Assembly: GCA_026706845.1 (NCBI GenBank)
Contig: JAPOXY010000057.1
Span: forward strand, 1 to 54,659
DNA: 54,659 nucleotides
Origin: Gemmatimonadota bacterium
GTDB lineage: Bacteria > Latescibacterota > UBA2968
Reading direction: 5' to 3'
The translations under genes were made by a program, and so were the position numbers. The notes beneath the pieces were generated by a model that saw nothing but the letters and a program-made list of their open reading frames with translations, was not told where the DNA came from and ran no database searches. Within the stretch, counting starts at the first letter, position 1, and the number at the start of each line of letters is the position of its first letter. Shown one piece after another: positions 20,965 through 40,798 of the stretch.

Positions 20965-22203
20965 TTATAGCTCGTCTGAGTTCTGGTGTGCAGTCGGTAG
21001 CGGTCCAAATCGCTTGACGGCGTCGCTTCTATCCACGATATCCGGCACCTGGACCGGCCTGCCCTCGTAGATCGACTGCACCGCACAGATCGCCCCGGCG
21101 CAGGACCGGGCGCTCTCATAGACGTTGCACGGCGGCTGATAGTCCTCCAGGATGGCATTCACCAGATCGAGGTCGGCCAGGTACTCTGTGCCGCCGTGGC
21201 CCACCCTCCTGGAGATATCCTCATCCACAATCAGCGGCGGCACTTCGATTTTCACCATCCCGTGTTCCGACTGCTCCTTTGAAGCCTCATCCTCCTGTTT
21301 GACGGACATCGTGTACATCCACCCATAAACGCCCCTGCTATAATTCGGATCTTCGTCGACAAAGCAACCATAGACACCCGGTCCATCGGGAGGAGGGGGC
21401 ACACGGCCAGAGGTCTCCAGCGTGCCCTTCGTCCCGTACACGGCGGCATACTCTATCGTGGGCCGCTTTGGCCCCTTTGAACAGACGCATCGGGCAATTG
21501 CACCGCTCGCCGTTTTGAAAAGCGCTACTTCGTGATCGTACACCTGTCGATAGGGCATATTCTTCTTGTTCCCGTACCCGAACACCTCGACGAATTGTTC
21601 TCCCATCAACCAGTACGCATTATCCACGGCGTACAGACCACCGCCGGCGCTGATCGATCCCTGAGCCAGTTCTCCCAACCCCCATCGGAAGGTCGGAGAA
21701 CCATCCTGCCGGATGGTAATTCCCTCAATGTCATGGACATATTCCGTCTCTACATAGTAGATTTCTCCAAGCTTCCCCTGTTCGATCAACCGCTTCATAT
21801 GCACCGTAGGTGCCATCCACCGGAGCTGATTGTCCATCTGGACCTTCAGATTGCGCCTTTCAGACATATACACAATCTTCCAGAGCGTCTCCAGGGACTG
21901 GTTCTCCATTGGCACCTCAACCATAACGTGCTTCCAGTGGTCCAGTGCTGCCAGGGTGTGCTGCCCGTGCAAGTGGCAGGGTGTGCAGAGGGCCACCAGG
22001 TCCACATCCTTTTCGGCGAGTACATCGGCGTATCGAGTGGTCCACTTGCCAATGCCGTGTTCCTCTGCTGCGGACCTGGCCCGCTCCTCAACGACGTCGC
22101 AGACCATCACCACTTCCGTCTGGTCGATGTACTCGTTGAACACCCGAACGTGTGACCTTCCATGGCCCATCCCGACCACAGCAACCTTCAATGTCTTTGC
22201 CAT
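20965..22203 (-). CDS. Gfo/Idh/MocA-family protein lacking EKP and DxxxH (paralogue A)
   Basis: A 412-residue protein with an N-terminal Rossmann fold (VVGMGHGRSHVR, 9-20; acidic CDV at 35-37) and the Gfo/Idh C-terminal domain. At the usual EKP position it reads EVP (96-98), so the conserved lysine is a valine. Where family members have DxGxH it reads SAGGGLYAVD, with no aspartate and tyrosine for histidine. The first 30 residues, the CSPCH/CTPCH loop and the PMEN motif are shared with the protein at 28167-29363. It is directly upstream of the sugar-binding protein gene (13 bases), in the importer transcript. It may be a dehydrogenase using different residues, or a non-redox enzyme or sensor. 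Confidence 0.88.
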   Translation of the reverse strand: MAKTLKVAVVGMGHGRSHVRVFNEYIDQTEVVMVCDVVEERARSAAEEHGIGKWTTRYADVLAEKDVDLVALCTPCHLHGQHTLAALDHWKHVMVEVPMENQSLETLWKIVYMSERRNLKVQMDNQLRWMAPTVHMKRLIEQGKLGEIYYVETEYVHDIEGITIRQDGSPTFRWGLGELAQGSISAGGGLYAVDNAYWLMGEQFVEVFGYGNKKNMPYRQVYDHEVALFKTASGAIARCVCSKGPKRPTIEYAAVYGTKGTLETSGRVPPPPDGPGVYGCFVDEDPNYSRGVYGWMYTMSVKQEDEASKEQSEHGMVKIEVPPLIVDEDISRRVGHGGTEYLADLDLVNAILEDYQPPCNVYESARSCAGAICAVQSIYEGRPVQVPDIVDRSDAVKRFGPLPTAHQNSDEL

Positions 22204-28166: not shown

Positions 28167-29363
28167 TCAAAGCTCCGCACTCGACGCTTCCCCATAGGGC
28201 AGTGGATAGAGCGGTTTCATCTCATCGTGTCGATCCGCAATCTGTGGGATAGAGATCGGTCGATGCGCCACCTTCGACTCGTTGACCGCAACTGCTCCGG
28301 CACATGTGCGCGCCGCTTCATAGACATTGATTTCCGACATACAATCGTTCTCGATCGAGTGGATCAAGTCCATCCAACTGAAGAATTCCACACCGCCATG
28401 CCCCACCTTCCTGACCATATCTTGGGTGATCCACTCCGGTAGTGGAACTGGCGGCACCTCAATCGGACGCATCTCGTAAGGCCCGGTATAAGGCTTGGGT
28501 CCGGCGCCGTCCTCCACCAGACATCCGTAAAGTCCCGTACTGTCCGGGGGCGCAGGCAGATACCCCGTAGATTCGATCGTGCCCTTCGTACCCCACACCG
28601 ATTTTGTAATTTCCTTGTAGGGACGCCTCGCTGCCTTTGAACACTGGACCCGTGCAATCGCCCCGGAGGCCGTCCGAAACAGAGCCACATCGTGGTCGTC
28701 CACGTTCCGGCTGGGCAGATTCTTGCGATTGCCGTAGGCAAAAACCTCCGTGAAGTCCTCTCCCAGAAACCACCGGGCCGTGTCCACAGCATAGATACCC
28801 GCTCCGGCAGACACAGATTCCTGTGCCTTCACCCCGTAGCCCATCCGAAAACCCTCTTTTTTCATGAGTCCGCCTCCGCCCTGCTGCCGAATATCCTGTA
28901 AATATTCGCAGATCACGTAATAGATTTCCCCCACATGGCCATCGTCGATCAACTGCTTCATCTTCACTGACTCCGGGATCCACCGGTCCGGGCAGTCCAT
29001 CTGGACCTTCAGATGCCGGCGTTCGGCCATCGTGATAATTTTCCAGAGCCGTTCCATGGACTCGTTTTCCATCGGCGTCTCAACCATCACATGCTTGCCG
29101 GCATCCAGCGCTGCCAGCACCATCTGCCCGTGGATATGACAGGGCGAACAGATACACAGAATGTCCAGGTCCGTGTCCGAAAGCAAGTCCGCGTAATGCG
29201 TGGTTGTCTTGCCTATGTCCAGTTCTTTAGCCGTGTTCTGCAGCCGCTCCTCGTTCACATCACAGATCACAGCGCACTCGGTCTGCTCAAGGTATTCGTG
29301 GGTTAGACGAACATGGCTTCTTCCGTGACCGAGCCCGACCACACCGACCTTGTAAGTCTTCAT
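28167..29363 (-). CDS. Gfo/Idh/MocA-family protein lacking EKP and DxxxH (paralogue B)
   Basis: A 398-residue protein with Rossmann motif VVGLGHGRSHVR (8-19) and CDV (34-36). The EKP position reads ETP (95-97), threonine replacing lysine, and the DxGxH region reads SAGAGIYAVD with tyrosine for histidine. It shares the GHGRSHVR, SPCHIHGQ and PMENES motifs with paralogue A, indicating duplication. The ATG at 29363 has GGGAG eight bases upstream; a GTG five codons earlier overlaps that site. It is the first gene after two hairpins at 29396-29534, so its expression could be controlled by readthrough. Confidence 0.88.
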   Translation of the reverse strand: MKTYKVGVVGLGHGRSHVRLTHEYLEQTECAVICDVNEERLQNTAKELDIGKTTTHYADLLSDTDLDILCICSPCHIHGQMVLAALDAGKHVMVETPMENESMERLWKIITMAERRHLKVQMDCPDRWIPESVKMKQLIDDGHVGEIYYVICEYLQDIRQQGGGGLMKKEGFRMGYGVKAQESVSAGAGIYAVDTARWFLGEDFTEVFAYGNRKNLPSRNVDDHDVALFRTASGAIARVQCSKAARRPYKEITKSVWGTKGTIESTGYLPAPPDSTGLYGCLVEDGAGPKPYTGPYEMRPIEVPPVPLPEWITQDMVRKVGHGGVEFFSWMDLIHSIENDCMSEINVYEAARTCAGAVAVNESKVAHRPISIPQIADRHDEMKPLYPLPYGEASSAEL

Positions 29364-29556: not shown

Positions 29557-30495
29557 TCAGAACGTCCCGTTCACCGTGAATCTCAAAGGTGCGTTGAAGA
29601 ATTTGCTATGGGTGTAAGCGATATCTACACTGAGCGACGCCGCACCGAAAGCCCGCTTGAGCCCGGCGCCGACGCTGAAATCCTCGGCGTCGTAATTCCA
29701 CTTGTATCCCCCCCTCAGTGCCAGTGTATTGGCCAACCACAGTTCAGCACCCATGTGAACGCGTCCTTCGTAATCAATCGCAAACACGTTCTCTGCTGAA
29801 AGTGTTAGATAAGTGGGATCTCCCACCTTCCCGATCACCTCCATGGCCCCGGCGATTGTGTAAACCACCGGCATAAAAGAGCTCTCTGCGATAACGGTGT
29901 TGTCCTGCCCAAAGTTCTTCAGGGTCATCGCTAACCGGAAAGACTGGAAACCAGTGTAGAAAAGCGTACCGACGCTGGCGTCAAAAGTCGTATTCGAATC
30001 TTCGAACAGAGACTCTTGAAGGTACCTGAAGTTTGCACCGAAAGAGAGCCTATCGGTGAACTGGTAGGCATAGGCAACACCAAACGCGATGTCGTCCCCC
30101 TCTACCATCTTGCCGGTGCCCATGGGTTCGAAAATGGTCGTCTCCTCAAATGGCTTCGTCCGAAACGACACCATGCTGATCCCGAAGACCGAAGCACCGA
30201 AACGATAAGCCACGGCACCCGAGTAGAGTTTTGAATCGGCAAACCAGCGATTGTAAGAAAAGGTATATGCAGCCCTCTCGATGTGGGTCAGGCCAGCCGG
30301 ATTCCAGAAGATGCTATTGATATCGTTAGAAATAGCCATATACGCAGATCCCATCGCCACAGGGCGAGCCGATTGGCCAATTTTCACAAAGTAGAACCCG
30401 GTCGTGCCCAGTTTCTTGAAGATGGCCTCTGCATCCACGGCCAGAAGCGGCCCCATCAGTGCGGCCAAAGTGGCTATCAACAGACTGCGTCTCAT
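29557..30495 (-). CDS. PorV/PorQ family outer-membrane beta-barrel
   Basis: A 312-residue protein with signal peptide MRRSLLIATLAALMGPLLAVDA followed by the PorV/PorQ opening GTTGFYFVKIGQSARPVAMG, then AISNDINSIFWNPAGL, which is strongly characteristic of the family. The rest alternates hydrophobic and polar residues as in a 14-strand barrel and ends with a phenylalanine (NGTF), as many BAM substrates do. In Bacteroidetes PorV shuttles type IX secretion substrates; PorV/PorQ-like barrels also occur without that system. The ATG at 30495 has AAAGGAGG seven bases upstream. It lies 28 bases after a large secreted protein with a T9SS-like tail, which could be its client. Confidence 0.85.
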   Translation of the reverse strand: MRRSLLIATLAALMGPLLAVDAEAIFKKLGTTGFYFVKIGQSARPVAMGSAYMAISNDINSIFWNPAGLTHIERAAYTFSYNRWFADSKLYSGAVAYRFGASVFGISMVSFRTKPFEETTIFEPMGTGKMVEGDDIAFGVAYAYQFTDRLSFGANFRYLQESLFEDSNTTFDASVGTLFYTGFQSFRLAMTLKNFGQDNTVIAESSFMPVVYTIAGAMEVIGKVGDPTYLTLSAENVFAIDYEGRVHMGAELWLANTLALRGGYKWNYDAEDFSVGAGLKRAFGAASLSVDIAYTHSKFFNAPLRFTVNGTF

Positions 30496-30523
30496 TTTTA
30501 TGCCTCCTTTCATGGTCGCACGG

Positions 30524-32740
30524 TTATTTGACAATCATAAATGTCCCTGTCTTCTTCTCGCCCTCGCTCCCCGGCATCAGCGACTCCACCACGAAGAAAT
30601 ACTTTCCCGTCGAGACCTTCGACGCGAAATTCAGTACCACCTGATTCCAACTCGTCTCTCCCCGAATCGGGGACCTTGTCCGCACCGGGTTATCGACCAC
30701 CGCGACCAGATCTCCAGAGACGGTAAAGATCGAGATCTTGCACCTTCGGGGCACATTCACAAATCGGATCTCTTCGCTACCGCCCGGGTAGCGGTGGATG
30801 TCGTCGAGTCTGAATGGGTTGGGCACCACAATCACCGGATCCTCGAATCGGTCTTTCTTATCGGAGGCCACCACAAAGGGTATGCTTTGCAGGTGCGTCC
30901 TCGTTTCGGGCGCGCCGTGACCACTCTCCAGGGAGGGAATCGCCATTCCTGTGCCGTTCCAGTCGGTGTGCCCAGTGTCGTAGCTTCGGACAGAGTACCA
31001 ATAACTGAACCCCGCGAGCGAGGAGGCATCCTTATAGCTGTGCGTGCCGGTCTGGAGGTCCACCAGAAGCTCCCAGGGTCCCATAGATGTGAGTTCTGAC
31101 CGGTAAATCCGATAGCCAGCTACATCCCGCGCCTCGGCGGTCCCCATATAGTCGGGGTCTTCAGCGGCCTCTGCGTCGGCAGACCAGGACAGCAGGTTGT
31201 TCCCGTCCTCGTCGCTTTCCACCGTGAATCTGATGTCGGGCGGCGCGTCGGGGATATCGTAGTTGTTGGCGTAGGCAAACCGGGCCCGATCCAGGTGCTG
31301 GGCCAGTGCCCGTTCACCGTCGGGCACCTGAGCCTGAGCTCCCGGCTGTCTACTCCATCCAAAAATGTCCACTGTTTCTCCTGAGCTTGCAAATTCGGCT
31401 CCGGTGCCAGCTACCCAGGCCACCACGACCTTGGCTTTGTCGCCGGGGCCCAGATCGTAGGGACCATAGGTCTGAGCGAAGCCCATGTTCATAAGCTCTG
31501 TGGGATTGTCCTGGGGGTGCTTTGGCGAGATGGGGCGCATTCCCTGCCCGGTCATCTCCAGGTAGATCTCCTCGTCGGACATAGGATGCTCCGGCGTATC
31601 GATGTCGTCCAGGCTGCGGATTTGCCACCAGAAGGGGAAGGCTGGCTGGTCGGGATTCTTCGGTGCTACATAGACCTCGTCGTCCTGGGCGAACCCGTCG
31701 GTCGGATCGGCGTCTAACAGGGCCAGCCCGATATACTGAAATGCCCGGAGCTGCCCTTCCTTGAGGAGGCCGGAGTTTCGGACATTGCCCGGGGCCTCGG
31801 CCAGCCGGGCAGGCTCACCCGTGTCATCGGCCTGGTCAAAGGGGTAGTCGCCGTCATAGACGTACTGGATCTTTTTTCCTCTCAGATCCGCGTGGCCATC
31901 GAAATTGGGCGCTTCGCTGTACTTGAACCAGTCGTCCTGCACCCGGGGGCTCACATCCTCCCAGCCGCTGGTCCAGCCCGTCCACATATGCCCTGCCCGG
32001 GAGACTCTGGGCAGATTGAAAAATGAAAGGTATGTATCGTTCAACTGCTTCGTCCCGGTATTCTCCAGAATGACCTCTTGAATGATGAAGTCGTCGTAGT
32101 CCGGGTAGCCCCACGCTTTGGCCTTTCGAGTCACGACAATCCCGGTTTCGGTGCCCCACTGCGTAATCAGGATTTCTTCGGGTTGGGTGTCGTTGGGAAT
32201 GTACCGGTTGTAGTCGAAGTTGTGGATCTCCGTCACATCGTTGACCACCGGCGGTGCTCCTGGCCAGTAGTTGGCCGTCACTGCTCCAGTCGCCGGAGAG
32301 ACCGTCCGTACGCCCAGGTCTTTCTCAGGACCGGCGGAGGCATCGTAGGTCATCGGCACGATATCCTCTGTGACTATCCGGGGATTGGACATCGACACAT
32401 TGTAGAAGCCGTTCTCGTCCTTTGTCAGCACATAGATCCCCTCTCCCTGGCTGGTGTGGGTCGAACGGTCCGCAAAGTCGATGCTCTCCTTAACTCCCCA
32501 GTAGTCTTCAAAGTCTCCCTCCAAAATGGGAGCACCGGGGTACATCAAGCCCGCGTCCCACAGTCTCGTCCAGCTCCTGGTCATGCCCTCGGTCTTACCC
32601 TGGATGCCGTTGCTGCGATAGCCCGACCAGAGCAGTCCCCGGGTCAGGTTCCGCATCGGCGCAGCCTGGGCCCAAAGGCTACACGGCAGGAACAACAGCG
32701 ACAGCACCACAGGCCAGAAGCCTATTCTCACTATTCGCAT
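30524..32740 (-). CDS. Large secreted protein with T9SS-like C-terminal domain
   Basis: A 738-residue exported protein with a clear signal peptide (MRIVRIGFWPVVLSLLFLPC...AQA). I do not recognise the first ~480 residues. A fibronectin-like segment follows (VAGYRIYRSELTSMGPW ... YWYSVRSYDTG). The C-terminal ~90 residues begin VVPNPF and include ISIFTVSGDLV and STGKYFFVVE, ending MIVK. That pattern matches type IX secretion or FlgD-like sorting domains (NP...G.....G.Y). AAGGAGG precedes the ATG. It lies between the TonB receptor and PorV/PorQ genes, so it may be a surface-displayed partner of the receptor in place of a SusD lipoprotein. This role is inference. Confidence 0.75.
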   Translation of the reverse strand: MRIVRIGFWPVVLSLLFLPCSLWAQAAPMRNLTRGLLWSGYRSNGIQGKTEGMTRSWTRLWDAGLMYPGAPILEGDFEDYWGVKESIDFADRSTHTSQGEGIYVLTKDENGFYNVSMSNPRIVTEDIVPMTYDASAGPEKDLGVRTVSPATGAVTANYWPGAPPVVNDVTEIHNFDYNRYIPNDTQPEEILITQWGTETGIVVTRKAKAWGYPDYDDFIIQEVILENTGTKQLNDTYLSFFNLPRVSRAGHMWTGWTSGWEDVSPRVQDDWFKYSEAPNFDGHADLRGKKIQYVYDGDYPFDQADDTGEPARLAEAPGNVRNSGLLKEGQLRAFQYIGLALLDADPTDGFAQDDEVYVAPKNPDQPAFPFWWQIRSLDDIDTPEHPMSDEEIYLEMTGQGMRPISPKHPQDNPTELMNMGFAQTYGPYDLGPGDKAKVVVAWVAGTGAEFASSGETVDIFGWSRQPGAQAQVPDGERALAQHLDRARFAYANNYDIPDAPPDIRFTVESDEDGNNLLSWSADAEAAEDPDYMGTAEARDVAGYRIYRSELTSMGPWELLVDLQTGTHSYKDASSLAGFSYWYSVRSYDTGHTDWNGTGMAIPSLESGHGAPETRTHLQSIPFVVASDKKDRFEDPVIVVPNPFRLDDIHRYPGGSEEIRFVNVPRRCKISIFTVSGDLVAVVDNPVRTRSPIRGETSWNQVVLNFASKVSTGKYFFVVESLMPGSEGEKKTGTFMIVK

Positions 32741-32839: not shown

Positions 32840-35800
32840 TCAGAAGGACACCATCACTCCCAGCTCGATCTCTCTTGGAAACCCGGCATATCGGCTCAGT
32901 TCTCCGGTATCGCCGAACTGTTTGTACGTGCCGCTGTCGGGCCTTGGCCGATCCAGACCGTTTTTCCACCAGTCCTCAGCCGGCCTGGGCTGTAGATCGC
33001 GCTGGTTAAACAGGTTCCTGACGTTGAAATAGAATGTAGAGCGCACCTGGTTGCGGATCTGGAACCGCTTCACAAAGGCCAGGTCGGTCCGGGTATGCAT
33101 AGGTCCGAACCACCACTTCGGTGGCTCGCCAGGCAGTGCGAACCGCCTAGCCCTCCCCTCCTGCATCCGATAGACCATCGTGACGCTGATGTCGCCCCAC
33201 ACCGGTCCATAGTCCGTCGGCGAGTGATAAACAAACACCACCGATCCGAAACCCGGCCGTTCGGTCCCAAAAGTCCCCTGTGCTGTGTTCCGTCCCCGGG
33301 GGTTTACGTTAAACTGTTTGTAGGACCACATGCCTGGCCAATCCTCCATTTCTTTGATCTCGGATTCCTTGAGCGGGTCGTAGTCCGCCGCGGTGCCATT
33401 CTGTATGGCCCGGAGCCGTTCGTTGGCCCGATGGCCGAATTCCTGGATCTCCTCAGCGGTCAGCAGCACCGGTACTTCCGCTCCGGAATCGCTGCTGTTC
33501 ACCTGCCCGTCGCCGTTGGTGTCCCGGGAGTGCGTCACATAGTAGTTGGATCCGGTGGCGACCCAGTTCGAGTCGGGCACAAAGTAGGTCCTCCACCACC
33601 CGGACTGGCGTGCGGCCGACACCCACTGCTTATTGTACGAAACCAGGAATGAGAACCCGTGGCTGAGATTCTTCCTCAGCGACAGTTCGATGCCCCGGAC
33701 GTCCTCATAGGAGTTATTCCTCCAGTCGGCCCCACCGCGTTGGGGAGCCTGCTTCTGCGGGTCCCACCAGTAGCTATTGCCGTAGAAGAACTGATCCGTC
33801 CCACTCTTGTAGAAGACCGTCAGAGAACTTATGTAGTCCCCGACAAAGTTCCAGTCGGTCCCGACCTCGAAGCTGGTGGTCGTTTCATACTTAATGTGGT
33901 TCCAGAATCCGGACCAGTCCCGCGAGTCCGACTGGTTCCCGACCTCTGTCGGGTCGATCTGTCCGTTGTTGTTGAAATCCGCTGCCCGGGCTCGACTAAC
34001 CCATCCGTATTGAGCGATGTACCATGTGGAGGGCAACTGGCGGAACACTCCGAAAGAGTAGCGGATCGTAGCTCTGTCGGTGATCGGGTGTGAGACTCCA
34101 ACCCGGGGACTCCAGGCCTGCAGGGCCTTGGCATCCACCAGAGGGATGAGCTGTTGGCGCGTCCACGATTTGGTCATCGGCGCCATCGACCAGAGTCCGT
34201 GTTCGCCCTGAGGCACCTGGGTGCCCCAATCCAGTCGGTCATAGCGAGCGCCCACGTTCAGGACCAGCCCGTGAAACTCCATCTTGTCCTGGATGTACCA
34301 GGACGACTGGATGGGTTCCCACGGCGTATCCCTGGTATATGGCTTCCCGGCCACGCGCAGGGCAAAACTCGTCATACTTCGCCAGCGTTCCCATACGGTC
34401 AGCACCTTGTCGAACGCGACCTCAAACCCACTTTTGACGAAGTGCCCCTTTGTGATCTGGCTGGAGAAATCGAGCTTGAAGTTGACCCGTTCTCGCTTCG
34501 TAAGCTGATACTCGGTTCTCGTCGAGGGAGCGGCCGTGAAGTAGCCGTCCGCGTCCCGGCGAATGTCCTCGGTAATGCCTTCTCCGTATTGATCTACCGG
34601 TACGTTGGTGGTGTCCTGGTTATCTCGGAAAAAGGAAAGCTTCGCCTCGTAAAATGTCTTGGGCGTCAGGATGTGGGTCAGCGATACATAGACCAGGTCG
34701 TTTTTATACTTGACCTGCCCGGCCCCACTCCCCTCAGGGAGAAAGATGTCGCGGCCCAACTGCCTTCTGGCGCCTGAGCCTCCCCAGTAGCTTCCTGAAC
34801 GGCCGTAGATGCCCCCCACGCCCACCTTGAATTTTGAGCGCGCGATCCCGGTCAGTTTGTAGGAGGTCTCAATGTTGCCAGGAGAGGCAATCCAACCCGA
34901 TTTTCGGTCTGGGTAGAGGTAGAAGCCGCGCTGTTTGCCCTCTGGAAATATCGCCGCCAACCCCCGATACCTGGCCGAGGTAAAAAAGGAGGCATTTTCG
35001 ATCACCGGTCCGGATAGAGTCCCCTCTATGCGGTGGCCGATCACGCCGGTGTAGTCGATCCGCTCGTGCACCCTCCGTCCGGTCACCGGATCGGTTTCGC
35101 CCGTCCAGTTCGAATCGTTCCACTTCATCTTATCTTGATAATAGGGGCTGTCATAGACATTGCTGCCCCAGTGCTTTTTCCCGGCCGGATTCAACAGGTA
35201 ATCCAGGCTGCCGTGGAAGTCCCTGCTCCCTTCTTTTGTCACAATGTTGACAACACCCGCCTGGGCGTTGCCGAACTCAGCCTCCATCCCGCCTGTAACC
35301 ACAGCGAGTTCCTGAACAGCACTGGAGTTGACGCTCTGAAAATTTCGGCTGGCGTGCGACCGCCGCTCCACATTGACTGCAGACATGGGTACTCCATCGA
35401 CGTAGTAAACCACGTCACTGCTCCCAGAGCCAGATGACGACGTGTCTCCACCCCGGATCGACGTGTCTCCGTCCAGACCGACCCCGGCCAAGAGCTCAAG
35501 CACCTGTTCGGTGTCCTTGACGATGGGAGCGACCTCCTCGACGTTGGAGTTGTCCAGGATGTATTTGGTGGTTGTCCTATCCGGCTCTACTGGAGGCCGC
35601 TCAGCAACGACCACGATTGCGGTCATCTCCAGGGCGGTCTCCTTCAGGGTAAAATCTACAGTTGTCGTGAAGTCAGCGATGGCCTGGACGTCCGTCTTGG
35701 AAATCTGATCGTAGCCGATCATGGACGCTGTCAGCGTGTAGGTCCCCGGATTCACCAGCAAGATCAAGTAGTCCCCATCTGGCCCTGTGGTGGTACCCTG

Positions 35801-35965
35801 TGAGGTGCCCTCGATGATCACATTTGCCCCGGGCAACGCCTGACCGTTGCTGTCCACGATCTGACCTTTGATCTTTCCCGTGGTTCCGGCAACTGCCTGC
35901 TCAGAGGTCACCGAGAACAGCAGCAGAAAGGCGAATACAATCCAGAAAACACGATCACTCTTCAT
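32840..35965 (-). CDS. SusC-like TonB-dependent receptor
   Basis: A 1041-residue outer-membrane receptor for energised uptake. The signal peptide ends near AVA. A carboxypeptidase-regulatory-like domain (GQIVDSNGQALPGANVIIEG) spans about 30-110. The plug follows, with LAGVGLDGDTSIRGGDTSS and VVYYVDGVPM, then a long beta-barrel ending with aromatic residue F (GVMVSF). Domain order is that of SusC/CirA receptors. No SusD homologue is adjacent. AAAGGAG precedes the ATG. It is 30 bases after a small barrel-protein gene. Together with the PorV/PorQ and secreted proteins it forms the outer-membrane part of the block; the ABC importer supplies the inner-membrane step. Substrate unknown. Confidence 0.92.
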   Translation of the reverse strand: MKSDRVFWIVFAFLLLFSVTSEQAVAGTTGKIKGQIVDSNGQALPGANVIIEGTSQGTTTGPDGDYLILLVNPGTYTLTASMIGYDQISKTDVQAIADFTTTVDFTLKETALEMTAIVVVAERPPVEPDRTTTKYILDNSNVEEVAPIVKDTEQVLELLAGVGLDGDTSIRGGDTSSSGSGSSDVVYYVDGVPMSAVNVERRSHASRNFQSVNSSAVQELAVVTGGMEAEFGNAQAGVVNIVTKEGSRDFHGSLDYLLNPAGKKHWGSNVYDSPYYQDKMKWNDSNWTGETDPVTGRRVHERIDYTGVIGHRIEGTLSGPVIENASFFTSARYRGLAAIFPEGKQRGFYLYPDRKSGWIASPGNIETSYKLTGIARSKFKVGVGGIYGRSGSYWGGSGARRQLGRDIFLPEGSGAGQVKYKNDLVYVSLTHILTPKTFYEAKLSFFRDNQDTTNVPVDQYGEGITEDIRRDADGYFTAAPSTRTEYQLTKRERVNFKLDFSSQITKGHFVKSGFEVAFDKVLTVWERWRSMTSFALRVAGKPYTRDTPWEPIQSSWYIQDKMEFHGLVLNVGARYDRLDWGTQVPQGEHGLWSMAPMTKSWTRQQLIPLVDAKALQAWSPRVGVSHPITDRATIRYSFGVFRQLPSTWYIAQYGWVSRARAADFNNNGQIDPTEVGNQSDSRDWSGFWNHIKYETTTSFEVGTDWNFVGDYISSLTVFYKSGTDQFFYGNSYWWDPQKQAPQRGGADWRNNSYEDVRGIELSLRKNLSHGFSFLVSYNKQWVSAARQSGWWRTYFVPDSNWVATGSNYYVTHSRDTNGDGQVNSSDSGAEVPVLLTAEEIQEFGHRANERLRAIQNGTAADYDPLKESEIKEMEDWPGMWSYKQFNVNPRGRNTAQGTFGTERPGFGSVVFVYHSPTDYGPVWGDISVTMVYRMQEGRARRFALPGEPPKWWFGPMHTRTDLAFVKRFQIRNQVRSTFYFNVRNLFNQRDLQPRPAEDWWKNGLDRPRPDSGTYKQFGDTGELSRYAGFPREIELGVMVSF

Positions 35966-35995: not shown

Positions 35996-36691
35996 TCACA
36001 TATAAAACTTCACTCCAGCCCCGATGTCGAACAAGTGAAACGGATGGGTCTTTTTCACACCCCAGTTCAGGAAAGGCCTGAGTTCCCCAACGATCACATT
36101 GTAACTCACACGCAGGTCCAGGGCAGCCTTCGGTCCCAGGAAGATCTGCATCCCAGCCCCACCGCTTACACCCAGCGCTGTCCGCGTATCGTCGATCGCC
36201 TCCAGGAGCAGGGTCTGATCCAGCGTAGCTCCCCCTTGTTCGGGAAAGATGAGTCCGCTCACCTTAGAATGGTAGTTGTGGAACCCGGCTCCAACGGTAA
36301 GATAGGGAATGCTTCCTTCGCCTTCGAACTTCTTATCCTTTAAGGCGAAAAGCCAGTTGACCACCAGGCAGTTAAAGGTCATATCGGACTTGGCCTGTGG
36401 ACTTGTGTAGTCCCTTCCATCCTTGAACCGAAACGTCCGCTCTTCGAGACTGCCGCCCGCAAACTTCGAGTAATAATACTCCACTTCCACGATCCGTGCC
36501 GGACTGGTTACAAAGTGCGCAGCAGCCCCAAGCTTGAATCCCTCGGTGTACATATCCCTGAAGTTAAACAGCGGCGAATAAAGCTCGGCGAATACGCCGA
36601 ACCCCCCTCTGTGGCCCTCTTCCTGAGCCACAGCAAAAGCCGTGGGCGATAATACCCACAAAAGAATCCATAAACCCATGATCCTTCTCAT
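35996..36691 (-). CDS. Outer-membrane beta-barrel protein of unknown function
   Basis: A 231-residue exported protein: signal peptide MRRIMGLWILLWVLSPTAFA cleaved near VAQEE, then alternating beta strands such as GVFAELYSPLFNFRDM, RIVEVEYYYSKFAGG and ALDLRVSYNVIVG. It ends AGVKFYM. The pattern fits an eight-strand OmpA/OmpW-like barrel. I start at the ATG at 36691 after AGGTGTTT; a GTG two codons earlier is less likely. It lies between Gfo/Idh C (50 bases upstream) and the TonB receptor. Function is not recognisable. Confidence 0.75.
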   Translation of the reverse strand: MRRIMGLWILLWVLSPTAFAVAQEEGHRGGFGVFAELYSPLFNFRDMYTEGFKLGAAAHFVTSPARIVEVEYYYSKFAGGSLEERTFRFKDGRDYTSPQAKSDMTFNCLVVNWLFALKDKKFEGEGSIPYLTVGAGFHNYHSKVSGLIFPEQGGATLDQTLLLEAIDDTRTALGVSGGAGMQIFLGPKAALDLRVSYNVIVGELRPFLNWGVKKTHPFHLFDIGAGVKFYM

Positions 36692-36741
36692 AAACACCTA
36701 CTTTGAAAACACGCAGTCATTTTTCGATCAACCCACTCGTC

Positions 36742-37860
36742 TCAGATGATCTCCCTTTCCGGACCCAGCCGATTGTAAAACTGGGGGATATAGACCTTCC
36801 GGCCTCCCTCGTTGATCGAGATTAGCGAACTGATTGCCGCAGCGCAGCTCTTTGCCGCCTCATAGACGTTGATAAATGGCAGTCTGTCGTCTAATATCGC
36901 GTCCACGAAGTCGCGGCAGTTGTGGTACGTCCCGCCGCCGTGACCGGTTCTTTTGGCAACCTCGGCATCCAGTTCGAGCCCCACCAACTCCAGGGGCTCA
37001 ATCTCTCCGGGAAGCCCGCTCTCCTCCTGTGCATGTGCAATACCGAGCACTCCATTATGCCGATCTCCCTCAACGGCCGCCCTGGTGCCGTATAGCGACT
37101 TGTAGAGGTTGCAGCCGGGCCAGGCCATCGCCTTGCAACAGGCAATCTTTACCGTCACTCCACCGGTTGTCCTGAAAATTGCCGTCTCCCAGTCGTTGAC
37201 TGTCCGATATGGCGAGTAAATGCGGTTTCCCAACCCGACCACCTCGGTGAAATCCTGCCCGATGATCCAGCGGATGTCGTCGATCGCGTGAATGCCGCCG
37301 CCGGAAGAGATGCTCTCCTGCGTCGTCGTACCGAACCCATCCCGCCAGGTCTTTTTCCCATCTCTTACAAACAGGTACACCAGGCTGTGTGTATATTCAG
37401 ACTCGGCGTAGCATACCTCGCCGATTGTGCCATCTTTTACCAGCCGCCTCAGGGTGATCGTGCGTGGATCCCACCGGCTGTTCTGCTCCATGGCCAGCTT
37501 CAGGCCCGTTCGCTCTACCGCCTTGACGATTTCCATGCACTGGTGCAGCTTGTCGGCATTCTCCACCATCGGAATGGTCGTCAGGATGTGCTTTCCCGCC
37601 TCCAGGGCCGCCAGACACTCATCTCCGTGGCGAAATCCCGGCGTGCCCGTGCATATGAAGTCCACGTCCTGGTCAGCCAGCAGGTCTCCGTAGTCTGTAT
37701 AGACTCGGGGCACCCCGTATTCCCTGGCCAATTGGTTCGCTTTTTCCTCGTCTATATCGCATACCGCAGCGACATCCACTTCGTCGATGTATTCGTGGAA
37801 TGTCCTCAGATGCGACTGCCCGAATCCAAGCCCCACGATCCCCGCCTTCAAGGTAGCCAT
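36742..37860 (-). CDS. Gfo/Idh/MocA-family protein lacking EKP (paralogue C)
   Basis: A 372-residue Rossmann-fold protein (IVGLGFGQSHLR, 8-19; CDID 34-37). The EKP position reads TIP (95-97). The second motif reads SSGGGIHAIDDIRW, keeping a histidine but not the preceding aspartate. It shares the HEYI...CD opening and PM.EN motif with paralogues A and B but is more distant. Its ATG has GGAGG six bases upstream. It is the first gene of the minus-strand block, downstream of an intergenic region of 307 bases and the GntR gene, so it is likely the first target of regulation. Confidence 0.88.
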   Translation of the reverse strand: MATLKAGIVGLGFGQSHLRTFHEYIDEVDVAAVCDIDEEKANQLAREYGVPRVYTDYGDLLADQDVDFICTGTPGFRHGDECLAALEAGKHILTTIPMVENADKLHQCMEIVKAVERTGLKLAMEQNSRWDPRTITLRRLVKDGTIGEVCYAESEYTHSLVYLFVRDGKKTWRDGFGTTTQESISSGGGIHAIDDIRWIIGQDFTEVVGLGNRIYSPYRTVNDWETAIFRTTGGVTVKIACCKAMAWPGCNLYKSLYGTRAAVEGDRHNGVLGIAHAQEESGLPGEIEPLELVGLELDAEVAKRTGHGGGTYHNCRDFVDAILDDRLPFINVYEAAKSCAAAISSLISINEGGRKVYIPQFYNRLGPEREII

Positions 37861-38025
37861 CGATTCCCTCCGACAGATAACAATCTCAAGTCACGCAAAT
37901 GAAAACGTTACAACAAATGAGCCTCAGGCAATACGATTTCTTTCTAAAACGCACCAACCGTTCTATTCTATATTTCGTTAAGTTTCGCTAATCTTCACAT
38001 TTAATTAAGTTTTTCTAATTTCTAC

Positions 38026-38082
38026 TTGACATAAAAATCTATCTTTCTGATATTGAAAGGCGCAATGAAGAGAAATTATAAT
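38026..38082 (+). promoter_or_regulatory. Two tandem sigma70-like promoters reading away from the catabolic block
   Basis: P1 is TTGACA (38026-38031), a 17-base spacer and GATATT (38049-38054). P2 is TTGAAA (38053-38058), an 18-base spacer and TATAAT (38077-38082). Both point toward the convergent GntR gene, and no plus-strand open frame follows. Predicted starts are about 38061 and 38089. Confidence 0.45.
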
Positions 38083-38147
38083 ATTTCCTCACATTGTTCT
38101 GGCCATTAGCTCCTCCGTCCAAGGTTTGGTAGCTAATGGCTTTTTTA
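38061..38147 (+). ncRNA. Candidate small RNA ending in an intrinsic terminator
   Basis: Tandem promoter-like sequences are followed within 60-90 bases by a perfect 10-base-pair stem, a 19-base loop and six T (38141-38146), the layout of an independent sRNA gene. The loop starts CCTCCGTCC, so together with the end of the stem it shows CTCCTCC, an anti-Shine-Dalgarno motif. No coding frame of note is present. Ends are predicted only, and a mobile hairpin element is the alternative. Confidence 0.35.
38102..38146 (+). terminator. Intrinsic terminator, plus strand
   Basis: Stem GCCATTAGCT/AGCTAATGGC of ten pairs, loop 38112-38130, then TTTTTT. On the opposite strand the hairpin lacks a T-run, so it does not serve the GntR gene in the same way. 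Confidence 0.65.
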
Positions 38148-38167
38148 TATGCGCCTTTCGGCTGAGC

Positions 38168-38860
38168 TTACTGCGTGCGTTTTACCCATTGCCTCATGCC
38201 GGTATCGAAGTGATCCCACACTGCCTGCCGCATCCCATTAGGATCACGCGCCTTCAGGGCGAGGAAGATCCGCTCGTGGTTCTGGAAGTGTTCCAGGTCA
38301 ATGCTCTCCCAGTCCCACCACTCGCGGTGCGCCGTAACGAAAAATTCACTCAGTACTCGTCCAAGAGCCTGAGTCGCCAGGTTCCCCGTTGCTTCGTAGG
38401 TCGCAAAGTGAAACGCCCAGTCGTGCGTGTAAAACTCGACAGGACGCTCTAACGCCTCCCGCATCGCTTCCAGGTGATGCTCCATCGCTTCCAACAGATC
38501 TTCAGTTACGCGCTCTATTACCATCTCCACTATTCCAATATCCACCGCCCGCCGCAATTCGTACATCTCTATAATCGTCTTTTTATTTATAGATGGAACA
38601 AAGCTCAGATACTTAAACAAAGCCTGCGGGTCGAACTCTCTGACACTGATCCCATGCTTGGGACGAGCTTCCAGAACGCCTATTGCCTCTAAGATCTTGA
38701 CCGCTTCTCGAACGGAGGCACGACTCACACCAAACGCTTCTGCCATCTCTCGCTCTGTGGCCAACCTGTCTCCGGGCATCAATCCATTCTGCAAAATATG
38801 GTTCTTGATTGCACCGATGATCCTCTTACTCAGATTTTCTTTTTCAATGCTATTAAACAA
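38168..38860 (-). CDS. GntR-family transcriptional regulator, FadR/FCD type
   Basis: A 230-residue regulator. The N-terminal winged helix contains MPGDRLATEREMAEAFGVSR followed by SVREAVKILEAIGVLE. The C-terminal FCD domain is all-helical, with ligand or metal histidines in DWAFHFATYEATGN and DHFDTG. FCD regulators commonly sense sugar acids and other carboxylates. I start it at TTG 38860, which has GGGAG eight bases upstream and gives the typical opening FNSIEKENLSKRI. A longer frame from TTG 38980 would overlap its own promoter. It lies upstream of the catabolic block in the same orientation, 307 bases away, and is its likely regulator. Confidence 0.9.
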   Translation of the reverse strand: MFNSIEKENLSKRIIGAIKNHILQNGLMPGDRLATEREMAEAFGVSRASVREAVKILEAIGVLEARPKHGISVREFDPQALFKYLSFVPSINKKTIIEMYELRRAVDIGIVEMVIERVTEDLLEAMEHHLEAMREALERPVEFYTHDWAFHFATYEATGNLATQALGRVLSEFFVTAHREWWDWESIDLEHFQNHERIFLALKARDPNGMRQAVWDHFDTGMRQWVKRTQ

Positions 38861-38894
38861 ATCCCATTCTCCCGACCTTTCATTGTACAGATAT

Positions 38895-38944
38895 TGGTTT
38901 ACAAAACCAGCTATATCATTATATGGTATAATGGTCAGACCATT
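38895..38944. promoter_or_regulatory. Cluster of palindromic operators in the GntR leader
   Basis: Three perfect palindromes lie in the predicted leader. AATGGTCAGACCATT (38930-38944) contains TGGTCnGACCA, the core known for FadR-type operators, and would cover +1 to +15. CATTATATGGTATAATG (38917-38933) overlaps it. TGGTTT-ACA-AAACCA lies at 38895-38909. Autoregulation by the GntR protein is the natural reading. Confidence 0.65.
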
Positions 38945-38951
38945 AGTAAAA

Positions 38952-38980
38952 ATAATACACTCATTCACATCCTCTGTCAA
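38952..38980 (-). promoter_or_regulatory. Strong sigma70 promoter of the GntR gene
   Basis: TTGACA (38980-38975), a 17-base spacer and TATTAT (38957-38952), near-consensus. The predicted start is about 38945, right at the TGGTCnGACCA palindrome, leaving an 85-base leader before the TTG start at 38860. Confidence 0.7.
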
Positions 38981-39086: not shown

Positions 39087-40763
39087 TCAGGTTGCCGGAA
39101 TGACGGGAAATACGATGTGAGACGGATACTGTCTCGAGTGATGTACGGTCTGACGAGCCGGGCGCATCTCTGTATCGGTGCCGAATTCGTGGCCGGTATT
39201 TGGGTTGCGGTCAAAGCGCGGGAAGTTGGACGAAGAAATTTCGACACGGATGCAGTGGCCTTTCCGAAACACGTTGCCGGTGACACTGAGGTCGATTTCG
39301 TATTCGTAGATCTGGTTGGGTTCGAGCAGGGTTGGGTTGGTAAGGCTTTCGCGGTAGCGAGCACGCAAGATGCCGTCGCAGAGGTTTTTGGCGTAACCTG
39401 CGGGGGAGACATCTACCAGCTTGGCCGTCCAGTCGGTGTCCGGGCCGTCGGTGGCGGCGTAGAGCACGGCTTTGATTGGTCCGGTGACTTCCATGTCGGC
39501 TTCCAGGGGGGCCGAGGTGTAACAGAGTACATCGCCGCGCATCTCGACCGGGCGCTGATCATAGGGCCCCCAGGGCACGATGTGGGGCGAGCAGCAGTTG
39601 TTGCCACCCAGGGTCTGGACGGGGTACCGTGGGTCGTAGATAAAGTGGTCCAGAGTCTCTCCTTCTGTGAGGGTGGGAGACAGGCTCCCGTCGCCGAGCA
39701 GGGTGTTGGCACTACCGCGGGAATGGAGGTACCATTTCTGCCACCGGGTGCGCGCCAGGGGCCATTCGTTTTCATCGCGCCATTCGTTGGTGCCCATGAT
39801 GAAGATACGCAGGGGCGGTTCATCTACGATGCCGTTGTCGATGCCTTTGAGCCAGTAGTCGAACCAGCGCAGTTCCAGAGCCTCTAAGTCCACCATTGAG
39901 TGGTCGCCGAAGTCGATGTCGCCTGTTCGGGGGGAGGCGCTCAAGACGTGGGGCCACGGCCCGACGATGAGCTTACTTTGCCGGGCTTCGGGGGTGCGGC
40001 CGTGCTGCCGCAGACCGTTGAAGTTGGTGAAGGTGTTTGCGGCGTAGAGGTCATACCAGCCGCCCATGTTGAATGCGGGGACAGCGATGTCACCCCACCG
40101 TTTTTCGTCATTGATTTCGTCCCAGTAATCGTCGTAGGTAGCGTGTTGAATCCAGTCTTTCCAGAAGCCGAGGTTGCGCCCAGCCTGTTCGTCCATTTCT
40201 ATGAGGGGGAGATAACGAAAGGCTTCAGTCCAGTTGTGGTATTCGATGCTCTGGGCAGTGCGAGCGGTAGTACGCATGCCCCAGGTCATGAGGACGTTGA
40301 GTTGAAGGGCACCACCGGGATAGACCAGCCCGCTGAAGTAGTCACAGCAGATGACGCGAGGGGCAATGCAGGTGAGATACTGGCTTCTGTGCGGCGCGCT
40401 TTGCCACTGGACCAGGCCCAGGTACGAAGCACCGGACATGCCAATTTTGCCGTTGCTCCATTCCCGGCGACCGATCCATTCCTGGGTGTCGTAGCCGTCT
40501 TTGTCTTCCCGGAAAGGATAGTCGTTGCCCTCCGAGTCCCAGCGACCGCGACAGTCCTGCATTACACAGGCGTAGCCGCAGTTGGCCAGCCGCCGAGCTT
40601 TTTCGATCATGATATCGGTGTTATTGCTGTAGGGAGTACGCATCAAGACAGTGGGGAATTTTCCCGTGGCTCTGGGGAGGTAGATATCGGCGGATAGGTT
40701 AACTCTGTCCCGCATCGGGACTTTTACGTCCAGTTGCATATCTACGTCGTAATTGGGTTCCAT
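39087..40763 (-). CDS. CocE/NonD family serine hydrolase
   Basis: A 558-residue alpha/beta hydrolase of the X-Pro dipeptidyl-peptidase/cocaine-esterase family. The opening VPMRDRVNLSADIYLPR and FPTVLMRTPYSN are typical. The nucleophile elbow is GMSGASYLG, and the C-terminal jelly-roll domain (MEVTGPIKAVLYAATDGPDTDW) is present, ending with VHHSRQYPSHIVFPVIP. No signal peptide is visible, so it acts in the cytoplasm. ATG 40763 has AGAAGGAG five bases upstream; an ATG six codons earlier lacks one. It may hydrolyse an ester or amide of the imported compound, but its link to the block is only proximity. Confidence 0.9.
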   Translation of the reverse strand: MEPNYDVDMQLDVKVPMRDRVNLSADIYLPRATGKFPTVLMRTPYSNNTDIMIEKARRLANCGYACVMQDCRGRWDSEGNDYPFREDKDGYDTQEWIGRREWSNGKIGMSGASYLGLVQWQSAPHRSQYLTCIAPRVICCDYFSGLVYPGGALQLNVLMTWGMRTTARTAQSIEYHNWTEAFRYLPLIEMDEQAGRNLGFWKDWIQHATYDDYWDEINDEKRWGDIAVPAFNMGGWYDLYAANTFTNFNGLRQHGRTPEARQSKLIVGPWPHVLSASPRTGDIDFGDHSMVDLEALELRWFDYWLKGIDNGIVDEPPLRIFIMGTNEWRDENEWPLARTRWQKWYLHSRGSANTLLGDGSLSPTLTEGETLDHFIYDPRYPVQTLGGNNCCSPHIVPWGPYDQRPVEMRGDVLCYTSAPLEADMEVTGPIKAVLYAATDGPDTDWTAKLVDVSPAGYAKNLCDGILRARYRESLTNPTLLEPNQIYEYEIDLSVTGNVFRKGHCIRVEISSSNFPRFDRNPNTGHEFGTDTEMRPARQTVHHSRQYPSHIVFPVIPAT

Positions 40764-40798
40764 GGGGGCTCCTTCTGACATGTATCCATTATCTGTGT

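Follow-up and report, generated by a model that had tools for sequence, protein, structure and literature searches.

A contig of a Gemmatimonadota bacterium (GTDB phylum Latescibacterota, which belongs to the FCB group) carries a short stretch of nested inverted repeats and promoter-like sequences between two genes, one for a GntR-type regulator and one for an oxidoreductase of the Gfo/Idh/MocA type. The question raised by this locus is what the stretch at 38026-38159 is. The initial annotation offered two answers: an independent small RNA (sRNA) gene, or a small mobile hairpin element that brings a terminator with it. The window, i.e., the whole stretch of DNA that was analyzed, is 54,659 nucleotides long.

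Elements of the locus and their conservation

The features of the locus are collected in Table 1. The motifs described from the letters alone are present. There are two promoter-like pairs on the plus strand: the first is composed of TTGACA and GATATT, and the second of TTGAAA (38053-38058) and TATAAT (38077-38082) with an 18-nt spacer. The 10-pair stem is perfect, has 19 nt between its arms, and is followed directly by T6. It was missed by the terminator scanner because the loop exceeds 8 nt. The outer inverted repeat has two perfect 10-nt arms, and the downstream neighbor is a convergent gene. The stretch was also said to lack a coding frame. In agreement, a short frame from ATG 38065 is not conserved, as the alignment shows that the G006 orthologue has lost one base within it.

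Table 1. Features of the predicted sRNA gene and its neighbors, in window coordinates
Feature	Position	Strand	Basis or remark
-35 hexamer TTGACA, likely sRNA promoter	38026-38031	+	invariant in 3/3 type A copies
-10 hexamer GATATT, likely sRNA promoter	38049-38054	+	17-nt spacer
Predicted sRNA, ~86 nt	38061-38146	+	R2 match 38059-38150, E 5.8e-14 per genome
5' hairpin of sRNA, outer helix GCAAUG/CAUUGU	38062-38097	+	fold; both-side changes over 18 members
Terminator hairpin	38101-38141	+	perfect arms 38102-38111/38131-38140; loop 38112-38130 with CCUCCG
T6 tract of intrinsic terminator	38141-38146	+	plus strand only
Outer inverted repeat, left arm GAAAGGCGCA	38055-38064	+	seen in type A only
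Outer inverted repeat, right arm TGCGCCTTTC	38150-38159	+	beyond T tract
Two 21-nt direct repeats, 27 nt apart	37972-38019	.	directly upstream of sRNA -35, within divergent operon leader
Gfo/Idh/MocA oxidoreductase, divergent operon gene 1	36742-37860	-	orthologues in G006 and G007
Small outer-membrane beta-barrel protein, operon gene 2	35996-36697	-	OMP_b-brl E 4e-5, below curated cut-off
TonB-dependent-receptor-like protein	32840-35965	-	CarboxypepD_reg and Plug; homologue at 15/18 member loci
738-aa protein, next operon gene	30524-32740	-	without Pfam match
PorV-like outer-membrane protein, next operon gene	29557-30534	-	judged on partial translation, 258 aa
GntR/FCD-family transcriptional regulator	38168-38980	-	convergent with sRNA, co-directional with operon

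Taken one by one, the promoter and hairpin motifs are not remarkable. A 1201-base scan found 3 promoter-like sites, against 1.2 +/- 1.0 in shuffles. They are remarkable in combination, as measured by fold stability against shuffled sequence. The folding z is -5.93 for 38055-38165 and -4.61 for 38088-38150, and 0 of 200 shuffles were equally stable in either case.

The unit at 38026-38146, made up of promoter, 5' hairpin, terminator hairpin, and T6, is syntenic in two of the ten other genomes of the genus that were searched, G006 and G007. Both orthologues are 93-94% identical to the window element and, as in the window, have a GntR/FCD gene on one side and a Gfo/Idh gene on the other. The alignment of these three copies (type A) is strongly conserved from approximately 38019 to 38157 and then drops sharply. 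Identity between the window and G007 is 0.932 for the RNA, 0.900 for the promoter, and 0.747 for the adjoining leader; the values for G006 are 0.932, 1.000, and 0.892. In the window-G006 pair alone, the RNA (0.932) is not set apart from third codon positions (0.91-0.96). The conservation of type A in three close species is insufficient by itself to prove function.

Two further observations concern the surrounding genes. The G007 locus, although syntenic in other respects, lacks the S15/CocE-like peptidase gene that the window has at 39087-40781, between the GntR gene and a GWxTD/TPR gene. The window encodes at least three Gfo/Idh/MocA paralogues (21415-22194, 28230-29363, and 36742-37860), each with G006 and G007 counterparts.

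Not every motif belongs to the conserved unit. The outer repeat was described as enclosing all of it. Eight core pairs of this repeat are kept in all three type A copies, 10 pairs are found only in the window, and the right arm reads TGCGCCTTGC in both orthologues. On inspection, no counterpart was seen in the other types of the family described below, so the repeat is special to the type A locus. The second promoter is probably spurious: the TATAAT forms the loop of the 5' hairpin, and inspection of the other types showed nothing corresponding to it.

The two 21-nt direct repeats beside the -35 hexamer are more alike in G006 than in the window. They may be operator sites, perhaps for the GntR regulator.

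A family of two-hairpin RNAs

A covariance model, R1, was built from the three type A copies and run over 64 Latescibacterota genomes, blind to gene context. It gave 15 matches in 11 genomes, of which 13 were kept on inspection, 10 of them beyond the starting three. The matches left out are G014:C454 and one on the opposite strand of the type A locus in G006. A second model, R2, was built from the RNA part only of those 13 copies, and matches at E <= 1 were considered. R2 gave 26 matches in 20 of the 64 genomes, and 18 were kept at E <= 0.0033. The family thus numbers 18 copies. They are spread over 15 of the 64 genomes, and each of the 11 genus genomes has at least one; 13 of the copies went into building R2, and five are new to it. 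The eight R2 matches left out have E values of 0.016 to 0.92 and include G012 (inside an ORF) and G021. The G021 match (L085 867-958, E 0.186) possesses TTGACA, two hairpins, and a GCCGUUAGCC stem, but its T tract is poor; it may be a genuine member of the family that has degenerated. In L022, the genome of a bacterium outside the phylum, the best model match reached 22.8 bits (E 0.94).

Nine types are distinguished. Type A, that of the window, has three copies, type B three, and type C six. The others are single copies: D in G019, E in G014, F in G008, H in G025, and I and J both in G013.

Each of the 18 copies is predicted by folding to form a 5' hairpin and a terminator hairpin. Covariance analysis in related genomes had been proposed as a check, and the two-hairpin structure covaries over the 18 copies. 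In the R2-fitted alignment (A5, 18 copies), 96.2% of cells are paired, 13 of 19 pairs are changed on both sides, and 0 of 500 shuffles reach the observed covariation. Because A5 is fitted to R2, the count is also given for an unfitted MAFFT alignment (A4, 13 copies). Here, 95.1% of cells are paired and 8 of 19 pairs are changed on both sides, a count reached by 16 of 500 shuffles; the covariation score is reached by none of the 500. The measure of "further pair types" does not rise above shuffles in either the fitted (56/500) or the unfitted alignment (475/500).

The two hairpins differ in how they vary. Helix 1, in the 5' hairpin, has both-side changes at all six pairs over the 18 members. 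Helix 2, in the terminator hairpin, has such changes at 5 of 11 pairs, with 99% of cells paired. Among the six type C species, the 5' hairpin varies, and the terminator hairpin, loop included, hardly changes. The core of the terminator loop is C-rich, CUCCUCGCC-like, and nearly invariant across paralogous types; types B and C have the loop sequence UCUCGCCAAAG in common.

The promoter is conserved as well. In 15 of 18 copies, TTGACA occurs without mismatch at a nearly fixed distance of 31-37 nt upstream of the model start, and a -10-like hexamer follows after 16-17 nt. The exceptions are E (TTGATT), I (TTGACT), and H, which has none. This hexamer is separate evidence because the promoter is not part of the R2 model.

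The reading of the element as an independent sRNA gene is borne out by its conservation, the family-wide covariation, the conserved promoter, and the plus-strand terminator. Positions 38061-38146 very probably encode a stand-alone sRNA, its start estimated from the position of the -10 hexamer and its 3' end from the T tract. The predicted RNA represents a new, previously unlisted family of Latescibacterota. A literature search for Latescibacteria with small RNAs or covarying RNA motifs had none on sRNAs of the phylum among the matches listed. For a phylum without cultured members, it would be an early example of an sRNA family, recognized purely from sequence and supported by covariation.

Linked importer operons and the proposed role

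The sRNA is divergent from an operon with a TonB-dependent-receptor-like protein in 15 of 18 copies and six of nine types. These 15 are all 13 copies of the first context comparison plus the G002 and G008 copies. The linked operons usually also encode a small barrel protein (homologues at 11 of 13 member loci compared), a protein of 738-796 aa, and a PorV-like protein. Receptors of types A-E are mutually only 26-41% identical; the operons are therefore paralogous and are not a single inherited locus. The three copies that are not next to this receptor are of types H, I, and J. The gene beside H encodes a 341-aa protein and has T9SS-type neighbors, the gene beside I encodes a 345-aa protein and is followed by one for a 351-aa protein, and the gene beside J encodes an Omp85-domain protein.

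G007 has 22 receptor loci (24 matches merged), and an sRNA copy is found at two of them, types A and B. Searches upstream of the other 20 gave nothing convincing (best 13.3 bits, E 1.4; best E 1 in the other search).

The gene on the far side of the sRNA lies on the operon strand in all six receptor-linked types, with copies C_G009 and C_G002 left out. This neighbor encodes GntR in A, DUF6785 in B and E, a xylose-isomerase-like protein in C, LacI in D, and a ceramidase-like protein in F. The sRNA is therefore antisense within the gap between two co-directional genes. The distance to the end of the upstream gene is 22-30 nt in the window, in D, and in most type C copies, and the sRNA promoter sits within the operon leader.

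Types B, C, D, F, H, and I have one or more extra Shine-Dalgarno-like sites, AAAGGAGG or AGGGGGT, in their leaders (L042, L039, L047, L079, L078, and L080). These are far from the start of the first gene and without long frames, and those in types B and C are conserved among species.

Because most copies stand back-to-back with importer operons, the arrangement suggests that sRNAs of this family help control nutrient uptake. It is rather probable that the sRNA regulates its linked outer-membrane importer operon, and it would most likely do so as a repressor in the manner of Bacteroides DonS. Repression through antisense pairing is put forward tentatively. The sRNA would be made from the sigma-70-like promoter at 38026-38054, would have a short linker between its 5' and terminator hairpins, and would end at the intrinsic terminator with its large conserved loop. 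Operon transcripts that read through from the co-directional upstream gene (GntR here) would carry the complement of the whole sRNA, this overlap being assumed. The sRNA would then pair with the leader of the read-through importer mRNA, with the conserved terminator loop as the starting contact. A regulator bound at the tandem repeats beside the -35 hexamer could set sRNA and operon against each other. Outside the overlap, the sRNA pairs no better with the leader of its own operon (mean z 0.66, n=15) than with foreign leaders (0.10, n=106), in what is a weak test of unconstrained duplexes covering 11 of 18 members.

The sRNA could instead act in trans, its C-rich terminator loop pairing with distant ribosome-binding sites and the operon linkage reflecting only shared regulation or co-inheritance. 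That the loop core stays nearly constant across paralogous types, down to the shared sequence of B and C, while the 5' hairpin diverges is consistent with such a role, as are the extra Shine-Dalgarno-like sites in the divergent leaders. Yet the terminator loops (10 loops) did not pair clearly better than shuffled loops with 232 translation-start regions, the fraction of equally strong shuffles ranging from 0.05 to 0.93. Sites complementary to the B/C loop number 91 in 11 genomes, versus 51 for a reversed control, and none of the 30 inspected is 30 nt or less from an ORF start or presents a target. Searches of the 11 genus genomes found neither Hfq (PF17209) nor RRM proteins (PF00076), the latter search being positive in a Bacteroides control. 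A trans-acting role also fails to account for the receptor-operon link that 15 of 18 copies have, and we regard it as unlikely. With the pairing tests negative and Hfq and RRM not found, antisense pairing with the read-through leader would be the simplest scheme remaining.

The act of transcription, and not the RNA, might tune the importer operon, the divergent promoter and early terminator working by promoter competition or collision. The short distance to the upstream gene's end and the placement of the promoter inside the operon leader would suit this. However, it predicts neither the compensatory changes at all six pairs of the 5' hairpin nor the invariant terminator loop, which makes it improbable.

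It is very unlikely that the element does no more than terminate transcription of a neighboring gene or serve in its leader: the 3' hairpin with its T6 makes a good plus-strand intrinsic terminator, but no plus-strand gene of note begins or ends there, the T tract is confined to that strand, and the element has its own promoter and a covarying 5' hairpin.

The mobile hairpin of the initial annotation has next to no probability despite its perfect nested inverted repeats, since a search of the source genome (5.46 Mb, 279 contigs) for further copies gave only the self match and a 20-base chance match, the other two type A copies occupy the same gene context, the outer repeat was not seen in other types, and the paralogues diverged jointly with their receptor operons. 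A REP/MITE-like element was likewise rejected, as the source genome holds one real copy and not several dispersed, near-identical ones.

Comparison with known small RNAs

No Rfam family was found in the window at the gathering threshold. The best match of the element is RybB (RF00110), which scores 26.2 bits where the gathering threshold is 40, and RybB has no match among six other member loci. RybB is an outer-membrane-protein regulator in enterobacteria, and the likeness is in the two-part layout with a terminator hairpin. Spy779816 has a sub-threshold match in the window and another among these six loci. Both candidates were rejected.

FopS is a family of sRNAs in Bacteroides thetaiotaomicron (FopS/GibS). 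It is reported to comprise 14 paralogues that act as translational repressors of SusC-like transporters, an activity antagonized by the RNA-binding protein RbpB (PMC11697453). Both families are multicopy and tied to SusC-type importers. They differ in that FopS, as far as described there, act via the 5' end, whereas the best-conserved single-stranded stretch here is the terminator loop. FopS are bound by RbpB, an RRM protein, whereas no RRM protein was found in the 11 genomes here. No trans target was found among the 232 start regions and the 30 of 91 loop-complementary sites.

The DonS family of Bacteroides is composed of cis-antisense sRNAs of 78-128 nt associated with PULs. They are reported to be divergent to susC homologues and to lower their expression (PMC7366714, PMC11697453). 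The Latescibacterota family has the same size, orientation, and kind of neighbor, and several paralogous operons per clade, as far as DonS is described there. It belongs to another phylum, however; the first gene of its operons encodes Gfo/Idh, a small barrel protein, or the receptor, and SusD was not noted among the annotated genes of the linked operons. The family is DonS-like in layout, a likeness of arrangement.

A role in the control of nutrient importers is an attractive proposal. The receptor-operon link yields a concrete prediction on nutrient-uptake control in Latescibacterota, and the family tests whether DonS-like control reaches beyond Bacteroidota. A broader idea, which we hold to be doubtful, is that of operon-bound "guard" RNAs. 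Each paralogous importer operon would be accompanied by a divergent sRNA of its own, built of two hairpins. The recognition loop would be common to these RNAs, the 5' hairpin would evolve fast, and neither Hfq nor RRM chaperones would take part. If this is true, then together with DonS it would suggest that importer-linked sRNA control in the FCB group is either ancient or has arisen more than once.
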